64,000 nucleotides of DNA, from contig NZ_CP108054.1 of NCBI RefSeq assembly GCF_036173125.1, positions 9,183,501 through 9,247,500 on the forward strand, given 5' to 3'. The stretch's first letter is position 1; every line of letters begins with the position of its first letter. This stretch comes from Streptomyces sp. NBC_00286 (GTDB lineage Bacteria > Actinomycetota > Actinomycetes > Streptomycetales > Streptomycetaceae). This document shows, piece by piece, positions 1 through 7,966 of this stretch. A program made the position numbers and the translations under genes. The notes below the pieces were generated by a model. The model had not been told where the DNA came from. It worked only from the letters and a program-made list of their open reading frames with translations, and ran no database searches.

Positions 1-885
1 CGTACGGATCCGGCGCTGGCCGGCGAACTCGACCTGGACCGCGTACGCGTGCTCATCAACGGCAGCGAGCCGGTGCGCGCGGAGACGGTGGACCGCTTCC
101 GCACCAGGTTCGCGCCCGCCGGGCTCGATCCCGCGGCGCACTGCCCGGCGTACGGACTGGCGGAGGCCACGGTGTTCGTGACCGCGGATGCGTCGGACGC
201 CGCGCCCTCGACCGTGGCCTGTGATGCCGACGCGCTCGCGGAAGGGCGCGTGGAGGAGGCGCCGGACGCGGCGACGGCTGCGGTTCTCGTCTCGTGCGGG
301 ACGCCCGTCGGGCAGGAGATGCGGATCGTCGGCGCGGACGGTGCGGTACTGCCGGAGGGGCGGGTCGGTGAGATCCAGGTACGTGGGCCGAACGTCGGGC
401 CCGGCTACTGGAAGCGCGCCGAACTCTCCGCCGAGACCTTCGGCTTCGGCGCGACGGGCGACTGGCTGCGCACCGGCGATCTCGGCGCCCTCCACGAGGG
501 GCGGCTCCTCGTCACCGGGCGGCACAAGGACGTGATCATCGTGGACGGGCGCAACCACTACCCCCAGGACATCGAGCAGACCGTACAGACGGCAGTCTCC
601 CTGGTCCGCCGCGACCGGCTCGCCGCGTTCGGCGTCACCCGGCCGGACCGCACGGGCGAGGAACTCGTCGTGATCGCGGAACACCGCCGCGACACCGAAC
701 CGACGGCCGATGACGCCCGCGCGGCCGAACGCACCGCCCGCGCCACCGTCTCCACCCGCCACGGCCTGCGCCTTGGCACCCTGCTCCTCGTCCCACCCGG
801 CTCCGTGCCCCGCACCAGCAGCGGCAAGGTCTCCCGCACGGCGACCCGGAACCGGTACCTGGAAGGAGGCTTCGCCACCCGATGA
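1..885 (+). CDS. Fatty acyl-AMP ligase (FAAL), 3' part only
   Basis: The reading frame is open from the first base of the window, so the 5' part lies outside. The visible ~294 residues are the C-terminal half of an adenylate-forming enzyme: a YGLAEATVFV motif (A5 region), GEIQVRGPNVGPGYW, the hinge segment TGDLGALHEG and the A8/A10 region with DVIIVDGRNHYPQDIE. The GRNHYP(Q/E)DIE stretch is typical of FAALs such as mycobacterial FadD32 rather than of CoA ligases. FAALs activate a fatty acid as acyl-AMP and hand it to the phosphopantetheine arm of an ACP. The stop codon overlaps the ATG of the PKS (ATGA), so the two are translationally coupled; the obvious acceptor is the N-terminal ACP of that PKS. 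Family assignment is firm; chain length is unknown. Confidence 0.9.
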   Translation, partial: RTDPALAGELDLDRVRVLINGSEPVRAETVDRFRTRFAPAGLDPAAHCPAYGLAEATVFVTADASDAAPSTVACDADALAEGRVEEAPDAATAAVLVSCGTPVGQEMRIVGADGAVLPEGRVGEIQVRGPNVGPGYWKRAELSAETFGFGATGDWLRTGDLGALHEGRLLVTGRHKDVIIVDGRNHYPQDIEQTVQTAVSLVRRDRLAAFGVTRPDRTGEELVVIAEHRRDTEPTADDARAAERTARATVSTRHGLRLGTLLLVPPGSVPRTSSGKVSRTATRNRYLEGGFATR

Positions 886-6661: not shown

Positions 6662-7966
6662 ATGGACGCGCTGGCCGAGGCCGTGGTGGCGGGAGCCGCC
6701 CGTGCCGAACTGGAGCAGCTTCCCCTGCCCGGTCACTACACCGCCGCTCATCTGCGGGCGGAGGACGTGGACAGTTTCACCGGAGTCGCGGACAAGGACG
6801 TTCGCAAGTCCATCCACCTCGGCTCCGTGCCGATGCCCGAACTCGCCCCGAACGAGGTGCTGGTGGCCGTCATGGCGAGCGGCATCAACTACAACACCGT
6901 CTGGTCGGCGATGTTCGAGCCCATCCCGACCTTCACCTTCCTGAAGCACTTCGGCCGCCAGGACCGCTGGGCGGCCCGGCACGACCAGCCGTTCCACGTC
7001 ATCGGCTCCGACGCGTCCGGGGTCGTCGTACGCACCGGATCGGGGGTGCGCCGCTGGCGGGTCGGCGACCAGGTCGTGGTGAGCCCGGTGTACGTCGACG
7101 AGGAGGACCCGGCGACCCACGCCGACGGCATGATGGGCTCCGGCATGCTGGCCTGGGGCTTCGAGACCAACTACGGCGCACTCGCCCACTACTGCGTGGC
7201 CCGTACCAGCCAACTCCTCCCCAAGCCGGCCCACTTGACCTGGGAGGAGGCGGCCTCGAACCCGCTGTGCGCGGGCACGGCGTACCGCATGCTCGTCAGC
7301 GACCGGGGCGCCCGGATGACGCAGGGCGATGTGGTGCTGATCTGGGGGGCGGCCGGCGGGCTAGGCGCGTACGCCGTCCAACTCGTCCGCAACGGCGGCG
7401 GGATCGCCGTCGGTGTCGTCAGCAGCGAGCAGAAGGCGGAGTACGCCCGCAGCCTGGGCTGCCATGTGGTGATCAATCGGGAGGAGATCGGCCTTACCAC
7501 CAGCGAGGCGCCCGCTGATCCCACCGTGGTCGGCAAGCGGCTCGGCAAGCTGATCCGGACCGCGACGGGTGAGGACCCGCATATCGTCTTCGAGCACGTC
7601 GGCCGGGCCACCTTCGGTGTCTCCGTCTTCGTCGTACGGCGGGGTGGCGCGGTCGTGACCTGCGGGTCCAGCACCGGCTATCAGCACGAGTTCGACAACC
7701 GCTACCTCTGGATGCGGCTCAAGCGCGTCATCGGCAGCCACGGTTCCAACTTGCAGGAACAGGCCGCCGTCGGGCGCCTCCTGGACCTCGGGCACCTCAA
7801 GCCCGCACTCACCGCGACGTACCCGCTGACCGCCACGGCGGAGGCTGCCCGTCTCGTCCAGAACAACGACCACCTCGGCAAGGTCGGCGTCCTCTCCCTG
7901 GCCCCTGCTCCCGGCCTCGGAGTCAGTGACCCCGAGCGCCGGGAGCGTCTCATGCCTCAGGTGTGA
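6662..7966 (+). CDS. ccr: Crotonyl-CoA carboxylase/reductase
   Basis: 434 residues; ATG chosen because AGGAGG sits 5 bases upstream, although the frame stays open far upstream. Medium-chain dehydrogenase/reductase with an NADPH-binding GAAGGLGAYAVQ segment. Residues matching the CO2-binding set described for CCR of Kitasatospora are visible with a small offset: Asn78 (INYNTVW), Phe167-Glu168 (GFETNYG) and a His near 360 (GSHGSN). CCRs reductively carboxylate crotonyl-CoA or longer 2-enoyl-CoAs to ethylmalonyl- or alkylmalonyl-CoA. Position in the FAAL-PKS-esterase run suggests that it makes the extender unit for the PKS, giving an alpha branch. A housekeeping role in the ethylmalonyl-CoA pathway is less likely without the usual mutase neighbour (meaB/ecm). 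Confidence 0.88.
   Translation: MDALAEAVVAGAARAELEQLPLPGHYTAAHLRAEDVDSFTGVADKDVRKSIHLGSVPMPELAPNEVLVAVMASGINYNTVWSAMFEPIPTFTFLKHFGRQDRWAARHDQPFHVIGSDASGVVVRTGSGVRRWRVGDQVVVSPVYVDEEDPATHADGMMGSGMLAWGFETNYGALAHYCVARTSQLLPKPAHLTWEEAASNPLCAGTAYRMLVSDRGARMTQGDVVLIWGAAGGLGAYAVQLVRNGGGIAVGVVSSEQKAEYARSLGCHVVINREEIGLTTSEAPADPTVVGKRLGKLIRTATGEDPHIVFEHVGRATFGVSVFVVRRGGAVVTCGSSTGYQHEFDNRYLWMRLKRVIGSHGSNLQEQAAVGRLLDLGHLKPALTATYPLTATAEAARLVQNNDHLGKVGVLSLAPAPGLGVSDPERRERLMPQV

Follow-up and report, generated by a model that had tools for sequence, protein, structure and literature searches.

The stretch of DNA analysed here (the window, 64,000 nucleotides) covers positions 9,183,501-9,247,500 of the single-contig, 9.85 Mb genome of Streptomyces sp. 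NBC_00286. Its first 7966 positions hold a compact gene cluster built around a polyketide synthase (PKS) related to Pks13, the condensing enzyme of mycolic acid synthesis. The genes run in the order fatty acyl-AMP ligase (FAAL), PKS, antigen 85 (Ag85)-like enzyme and enoyl-CoA carboxylase/reductase (CCR). All are on the forward strand and tightly packed: the FAAL stop and the PKS start overlap by 4 bases, 24 bases separate the PKS stop from the Ag85-like start, and the remaining gaps are short. The window opens inside the FAAL gene, the start of which was sought upstream, as the initial annotation had advised, and was found 851 bases before the window, giving a complete protein of 578 amino acids. 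The four open reading frames and their domains lay where that annotation had placed them. The features are as follows, with the evidence in brackets; PKS domains are acyl carrier protein (ACP), ketosynthase (KS), acyltransferase (AT) and thioesterase (TE).

<1-885 (L002:17650-19386), + strand: FAAL, FadD32-like, 3' part in the window (Pfam, NCBIfam, PDB sequence search)
882-5549, + strand: Pks13-type polyketide synthase ACP-KS-AT-ACP-TE, 1555 amino acids (Pfam, NCBIfam, PDB search, trees)
882-1136, + strand: N-terminal ACP with GLTSRDA motif (PDB search, Pks13 N-terminal ACPs at the top)
1233-1615, + strand: Ala/Pro/Gly-rich linker between ACP and KS, about three copies of a 117-base tandem repeat
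1752-3071, + strand: KS with DTACSSS, EAHGTGT and NLGHLEA motifs (Pfam, sequence reading, tree)
3381-4331, + strand: AT with GHSLGE and GAGH motifs (Pfam, motif comparison)
4494-4694, + strand: C-terminal ACP, DLGLDSL (Pfam, sequence reading)
4767-5549, + strand: Pks13-type TE (alignment, PDB search, tree)
5574-6584, + strand: Ag85/mycoloyltransferase-fold enzyme, 336 amino acids (PDB search, predicted model, Foldseek)
6662-7966, + strand: CinF-type CCR (TIGR01751, PDB search)
L002:15889-17442, opposite to the operon: divergent major facilitator superfamily (MFS) transporter, upstream of the FAAL

The CCR start was set at 6662, the long open reading frame beginning at 5996. A scan for promoters and terminators 5' of the FAAL found nothing. 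The closest named loci in one scan were those of S. ureilyticus and S. flaveus, in which the best segment of the Ag85-like match is 94% identical.

The initial annotation had compared this gene order with FadD32-Pks13-Ag85, and the reading frames, the domains and the closest PDB relatives all agree with that comparison. Pfam recognised a KS, an AT, two ACPs and a TE in the PKS. Its closest PDB relative was Pks13 (869.7 bits over several stretches), with MAS second at 658.3 bits, and its top NCBIfam model was mycolic_Pks13 (NF040607, 1162.3 bits). The TE matched the Pks13 TE at 140.8 bits, with the first other family at 63.2. The N-terminal ACP also found the Pks13 N-terminal ACPs best (39.0 and 38.2 bits), the margin being small, since others followed from 35.8 down. 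Two motifs described in the initial annotation as close to Pks13 do align with it, GLTSRDA with GLSSRDA and LEHQRTSYLD with IEHQRTSYLD, and the presumed TE triad of Ser, Asp and His was invariant in an alignment of eight rows. The AT of the window has the motif GAGH. An xAGH motif at this place, which we take to be a marker of bulky extenders, was found in 50 of 64 family rows (three of the 64 being copies; the other 14 differ or could not be read) and in none of 25 ordinary rows, 12 of them readable and 13 unreadable; among ten mycolate-type rows it was GAGH in four, GASH in two and unreadable by script in four. The automatic name "polyketide synthase 13" was found on relatives P0085, P0091 and P0111.

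Phylogeny had been proposed beforehand as the check on this kinship. In the KS tree the window and mycolate Pks13 fell in one family clade with support 96/97 against the ordinary modules sampled, and in the TE tree with 100/99 against three ordinary TEs; the N-terminal ACP was judged by search comparison only. The clustering with ordinary modules that would have spoken against the kinship was thus not seen for either KS or TE. Three rows labelled "ord" in the KS tree (L113, L114, L115) are in fact copies from the family.

The complete FAAL matched PF00501 and PF23024, and its best PDB relative was FadD32 or an orthologue (422.6 bits), the top entries being titled acyl-CoA synthase and taken as FadD32 orthologues by reading. 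At E 0.001 the genome has no PF00756 match other than the Ag85-like protein. Its best PDB relatives were C. glutamicum PS1 (142.7 bits), Cmt1 and Ag85A/C, the first other esterase scoring 63.8 bits. It has the Ag85 fold, the Ser-Glu-His triad and the GxHxW motif, the last two conserved in 13 of 13 rows from loci of the two kinds closest to the window (types A and B, below). The predicted model had a mean predicted local distance difference test (pLDDT) score of 86.9, and the first 29 Foldseek hits were all mycoloyltransferase-family chains, MPT51 included. The enzyme looks secreted, judging from a signal-like sequence at its N-terminus.

Relatives were gathered with a TE alignment (A1). The TE type was present, at 330 bits at least, in 33 of 199 sampled Streptomyces genomes, about one sixth, so that the locus is not confined to this genome. 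Across 394 genomes of the class, TE scores among the matches listed fell into two groups, of at least 184.4 and at most 126.5 bits; a 34th Streptomyces genome, G060, had a TE at 141.6 bits, between the two. The high group comprised Streptomyces, families f18, f46 and f17, and family f4, in which the PKS stands beside AccD. Family f4 is called mycolate-type here; the two of its ten rows that were scored, L095 (2785.7 bits) and L090 (2239.8 bits), both exceeded the NF040607 cut-off. Proteins of f18 were 99.96-100% identical to Pseudofrankia (L074, L077, L079) or 90% to Parafrankia (L081), the f46 protein (L076) was 97% identical to an Actinokineospora protein, and those of f17 (L082-L089) were at most 53% identical to any protein compared and 41-52% identical to the named ones. 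An assignment of f17 to Pseudonocardiaceae was dropped on these figures, which takes weight only from the glucolipsin lead given below. A strong Ag85-like hit (E below 1e-90) was found in 28 of the 199 Streptomyces genomes, each time with the PKS adjoining (28/28). The Ag85-like gene was part of the locus in 31 of the 33 TE-bearing genomes, the exceptions, G001 and G139, being fragmented assemblies of about 630 and 1010 contigs. The TE was also present in 80/80 of the best named loci.

There were several architectures among these loci. Type A, with MFS transporter, FAAL, PKS, Ag85-like gene and CCR, comprises the window and L034-L038, and L042 is alike without CCR. Type B has AccD, FAAL, PKS, Ag85-like gene, a PucR-type regulator, a cutinase and a secreted lipase-like gene without Pfam match; these last three were seen in L039-L060 (not L042), in L193 and in many loci after it. 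In the window and 26 of 27 fetched type A and B loci the FAAL adjoined the PKS in the same orientation, the remaining locus being cut by a contig end. Types A and B were sisters in the KS (98/94), TE (98/93) and FAAL (98/97) trees; type B was thinned to six rows in these and the Ag85 tree, and the TE of L062 was dropped as too short. The type B cutinase was considered as a possible Rv3802c-like enzyme, a reading that was rejected because its best PDB relatives are CE5/cutinase entries. Between the Ag85-like gene and CCR of S. longisporoflavus a fatty acid desaturase is inserted (L036:10566-11564).

Type C, five Streptomyces loci, has a longer PKS (5/5) and the Ag85-like gene, with a FAAL hit in four of five, CCR in four and a glycosyltransferase in three; a ketoreductase was present in L064, the one scanned. 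All eight f17 loci have a long PKS and CCR, six a glycosyltransferase, six an Ag85-like gene and four an MFS transporter. The two scanned, L083 and L087, have a ketoreductase; the PKS of f17 carries the N-terminal ACP, and no FAAL hit was obtained within the fetched stretch. The glycosyltransferase adjoins the long PKS in L062, L066, L068, L083-L085 and L087-L089. Families f18 and f46 combine FAAL and a long PKS in 8/8 loci, with an Ag85-like gene in seven and AccD in four, and the one scanned, L077, has ketoreductase and dehydratase. The mycolate-type loci have FAAL, PKS and AccD, with Ag85 or cutinase-like hits near. A ketoreductase was found in most of 120 listed family proteins, including those of Amycolatopsis, Saccharopolyspora and Actinokineospora. 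Two proteins of 1777 amino acids from Patulibacter and Solirubrobacteraceae (P0174, P0204) gave a family TE match and contained a Pfam dehydratase and no ketoreductase.

The CCR exceeded the cut-off of the crotonyl-CoA carboxylase/reductase model TIGR01751 (540.5 against 378.55 bits) and was closer to CinF (643.1 bits) than to crotonyl CCRs (467.4) in the PDB. It reads GSHG, with Gly as in CinF at a position where crotonyl CCRs have Phe, and which we take to bear on chain length. The only other CCR of the genome (E 1e-20) is of the crotonyl type, with 956 bits to crotonyl CCR, 473 to CinF, and Phe at the position. The Gly was kept wherever it could be read in the first locus set (12 of the 18 loci with a CCR hit, the window included) and in 17/17 CCRs of a second set of 80. 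From the octenoyl (CinF) type of the CCR we predict a short second chain, such as hexyl.

The 80 loci are the best of 102 named loci confirmed in one scan, 78 titled Streptomyces and two "Actinobacteria bacterium". AccD was found in 53 of them, CCR in 17, both in none and neither in ten, seven of the ten being short and cut by contig ends. The position of D422 in PccB, presumably involved in specificity, was Ala in 53/53 AccDs of these loci. In the first locus set it was Ala in 20 of the 21 type B loci, a contig end having cut off the last one. It was also Ala in four f18/f46 AccDs and in the six readable of ten mycolate-type AccDs, and Asp in the PccB-like protein of this genome, the only one of four relatives readable there. 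The numbering is that of PccB in the available text of PMC5187497. The proposal in the initial annotation that CCR stands in place of AccD4-type carboxylation is well supported by the AccDs of the sister loci, with their AccD4-like Ala, and by the 0/80 co-occurrence. Since the mutual exclusion is largely the split between types A and B, the informative rows are L191 and L192, which have the type A MFS transporter, AccD between it and the FAAL, and no type B cutinase or lipase seen. In a concatenated tree of KS, TE, FAAL and Ag85-like proteins (40 rows) these two came out together with L042 (95.4/98), basal within type A; the rows with CCR, together with L183, L188 and L199, formed one group (100/100). 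The simplest reading of these sequences suggests that CCR took the place of AccD inside the locus. The exchange may have occurred more than once, because CCR is also present in the more distant type C and f17.

Downstream of the cluster, 3' of CCR and on the other strand, lies a P450 gene (7983-9359), the nearest models of which are albaflavenone and pentalenene oxygenases, with scores below their cut-offs; a comparable P450 also occurs near some type A relatives. Positions 9475-13957 hold a histidine-kinase-like ATPase, a Roadblock/LC7 protein, a small protein, an ATP-binding protein and a P450, which we take to be a Streptomyces conservon-like set, and which is kept beside the cluster in L034 and L035.

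Gene content, synteny, phylogeny, active-site motifs and the AccD/CCR exchange are established here. The account of them that we consider probable is an operon for mycolate-style loading, condensation, release, export and transfer, with a short second chain. Going by its family, the FAAL would activate a fatty acid and load it on the N-terminal ACP. The CCR, to judge from its similarity to CinF and the shared glycine, would reductively carboxylate a medium-chain 2-enoyl-CoA, most likely 2-octenoyl-CoA, to hexylmalonyl-CoA. Domain order and motifs suggest that the AT would put this hexylmalonyl-type unit on the C-terminal ACP, and that the KS would join both chains to an alpha-alkyl-beta-keto thioester. 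The TE would then release the chain, probably by transfer to an alcohol acceptor; transfer is favoured because a free beta-keto acid tends to decarboxylate and no reductase was seen in the cluster. A CmrA-like reductase was not seen among the cluster genes, for which the families shared by type A loci were read by eye and no CmrA query was run. By its position the divergent MFS transporter could fill the export role of MmpL3, and the secreted Ag85-fold enzyme would move the acyl group to a final extracellular acceptor. The product, the acceptor and the extracellular role we infer from these assignments. The predicted product should not be called a mycolic acid, because a CinF-type CCR implies a short alpha branch. 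PF04602 arabinosyltransferase gave no match in this genome and, among 14 control genomes, was positive in C. glutamicum only, as expected; a mycomembrane is therefore not expected. The search for MMPL proteins gave 37 matches in the genome and had no diagnostic value.

A number of results weigh against this account, or against taking it too literally. The PKS stays below the curated equivalog cut-off of NF040607 (2100 bits), and the mycolate-type rows form a clade of their own in the KS (100/100) and TE (100/100) trees, with the window outside it. Of the Pks13-type identity in the initial annotation, the grouping of KS and TE with Pks13 thus stands and the equation with mycolate Pks13 does not; judged by sequence, the window PKS is a relative of Pks13 and not the mycolate synthase. 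Some of the branches that separate types A/B, type C and the remaining families have weak support in these two trees. The FAAL scored 488.3 bits with the NCBIfam model of FadD32 (NF038339), under its cut-off of 975, and was outscored by the generic FAAL model (533.5 bits). The mycolate-type FAALs are a separate clade (100/99), and the outgroups of that tree are four long-branch rows, for which reason we claim no FadD32 kinship from it. Mycoloyltransferases of mycolate bacteria form a clade of 21 rows (98/89) that excludes the window enzyme, which groups beside Streptomyces esterases and orphan homologues without PKS in the fetched stretches; the Ag85-like enzyme could on this account be no more than an ordinary esterase. 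At the serine elbow it has GVSTGG, and mycoloyltransferases mostly have GLSMGG or similar. Three full-length loci of the window's kind, L183, L188 and L199, have no AccD or CCR within about 9 kb. An orthology of type B AccD with AccD4 by best PDB match was rejected, PccB (700 bits) scoring above a chain labelled D4 (517), though the D422 position is Ala as in AccD4s. The cutinase and lipase-like genes of type B fit lipid breakdown as well as transfer.

Several of these points would also suit a cluster that uses the same condensation for a diffusible small molecule. Here the TE would hydrolyse, the freed acid would decarboxylate to a ketone or cyclise, the MFS transporter would export it, and the Ag85-like enzyme would be a secreted esterase or tailoring hydrolase and not an acyltransferase. 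Specialised-metabolite clusters of Streptomyces often lie near chromosome ends, and this one is about 0.66 Mb from the contig end; the position of cluster-type Ag85-like enzymes outside the mycoloyltransferase clade and the cutinase and lipase-like genes flanking type B agree with such a product, as does the Pks13 TE being reported as hydrolase and acyltransferase in the available text of PMC11649247. We nevertheless regard it as unlikely, while deserving attention, given that the Ag85-like gene is kept in all but two, fragmented, of the TE-bearing Streptomyces loci and that its fold and triad are those of mycoloyltransferases. Far less credible is an ordinary FAAL-loaded one-module PKS, the likeness of which to Pks13 would be that of any ACP-KS-AT-ACP-TE protein. 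Any PKS does score on the Pks13 model, another one of this genome reaching 741.6 bits against 930.2 for the KS-AT stretch of the window. The TE of G060 lies between both score groups, and beyond the family the KS is next related to a PKS of 1925 amino acids from a mycolate-type genome (L116), presumably PpsA-like and also FAAL-loaded. The TE of the window, however, has 140.8 bits to Pks13 and 63.2 to the next family, the KS and TE trees exclude the sampled ordinary modules, and the gap between 184.4 and 126.5 bits across the 394 genomes was the reason to set a generic PKS aside. We give slightly less credit still to a mycolate locus recently acquired from a mycolate-making actinomycete, for which the similar gene set speaks. 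Transfer of this kind was set aside on the KS and TE trees: there, as in the FAAL tree, the mycolate-type clades leave the Streptomyces rows outside. The TE type is moreover spread over 33 of the 199 Streptomyces genomes, and the flanking conservon genes are common to related species.

The ketoreductase-bearing relatives in other Streptomyces and in other actinomycete families make mycolate condensation look like a single branch of a larger family. As a tentative extension, which we put forward with less confidence than the operon model, an older actinomycete family of fatty-chain joining systems, with or without ketoreductase and with AccD and CCR interchangeable, may have given rise to mycolate synthesis as one specialised branch. 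The products of this family might be short esters resembling mycolates, in Streptomyces as well as in Frankia relatives and Pseudonocardiaceae, with the window contributing an exported alpha-hexyl-beta-keto acyl ester placed by the Ag85-like enzyme on an extracellular acceptor. Mycolate condensation counts as a defining trait of the bacteria that make mycolates, and its pathway as a drug target. With a phylogenetically linked form present in roughly one in six of the sampled Streptomyces genomes, the origin of the pathway can be tested, the choice of the two chains by Pks13-type synthases can be studied in a genetically tractable setting, and Streptomyces lipids of a class so far unrecognised are predicted. 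The replacement of AccD by CCR amounts to an experiment of nature on how extender units are supplied.

Our literature search returned no description of such a locus outside mycolate makers, with subscription papers thinly covered, so that this absence is no proof. We know of no gene cluster for glucolipsin or cycloviracin, compounds with a macrodilactone pattern that would fit the relatives with ketoreductase and glycosyltransferase, unlike the window's type, which is without both. The available text of PMC4365757 describes glucolipsin as acyl chains with a C2 methyl and a C3 hydroxyl, joined to glucose in a dimer. By analogy, type C and f17 loci could yield alpha-alkyl-beta-hydroxy acyl glycosides, which we treat as a lead only. 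For the hexylmalonyl units predicted in type B, the acyl-CoA carboxylase MccB/SamR0483 of stambomycin synthesis is a precedent of the AccD type (PMC5187497, available part); its structures 5INF, 5ING and 5INI are those matched at 664 bits by type B AccD. It comes from a different cluster, however, and type B AccD is nearer to PccB. The same source, as far as available, has CCRs of this kind making alkylmalonyl units for a co-clustered PKS, as an AccD-type enzyme also can. CinF, the octenoyl-CoA carboxylase/reductase of the cinnabaramide pathway, is the closest solved relative of the window CCR and has the Gly in common with it; unlike CinF, the window CCR would feed its alkylmalonyl unit to a one-step condensing synthase.

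The nearest known system is mycolate synthesis. In Pks13, according to the available text of PMC11649247, FadD32 loads the first chain on the N-terminal ACP, the AT loads the carboxylated second chain and the KS condenses them, after which the TE hydrolyses the alpha-alkyl-beta-ketoacyl group or transfers it to trehalose, and MmpL3 exports the product. The cluster differs from the mycolate locus in having CCR and not AccD4 and, by position, an MFS transporter and not MmpL3. No CmrA was seen among its genes, the genome search gave no arabinosyltransferase, and the proteins fall below the curated cut-offs and outside the mycolate clade. The two share a KS and TE in one clade, and the GAGH motif of the AT is that of four of the ten mycolate-type rows. 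As in FadD32-Pks13-AccD4/Ag85, a FAAL stands beside an ACP-KS-AT-ACP-TE synthase, with a dedicated supplier of carboxyacyl-CoA and a secreted Ag85-fold enzyme. For each station of the Pks13 pathway this locus has an equivalent, AccD4 being matched by CCR and MmpL3, by position only, by the MFS transporter.

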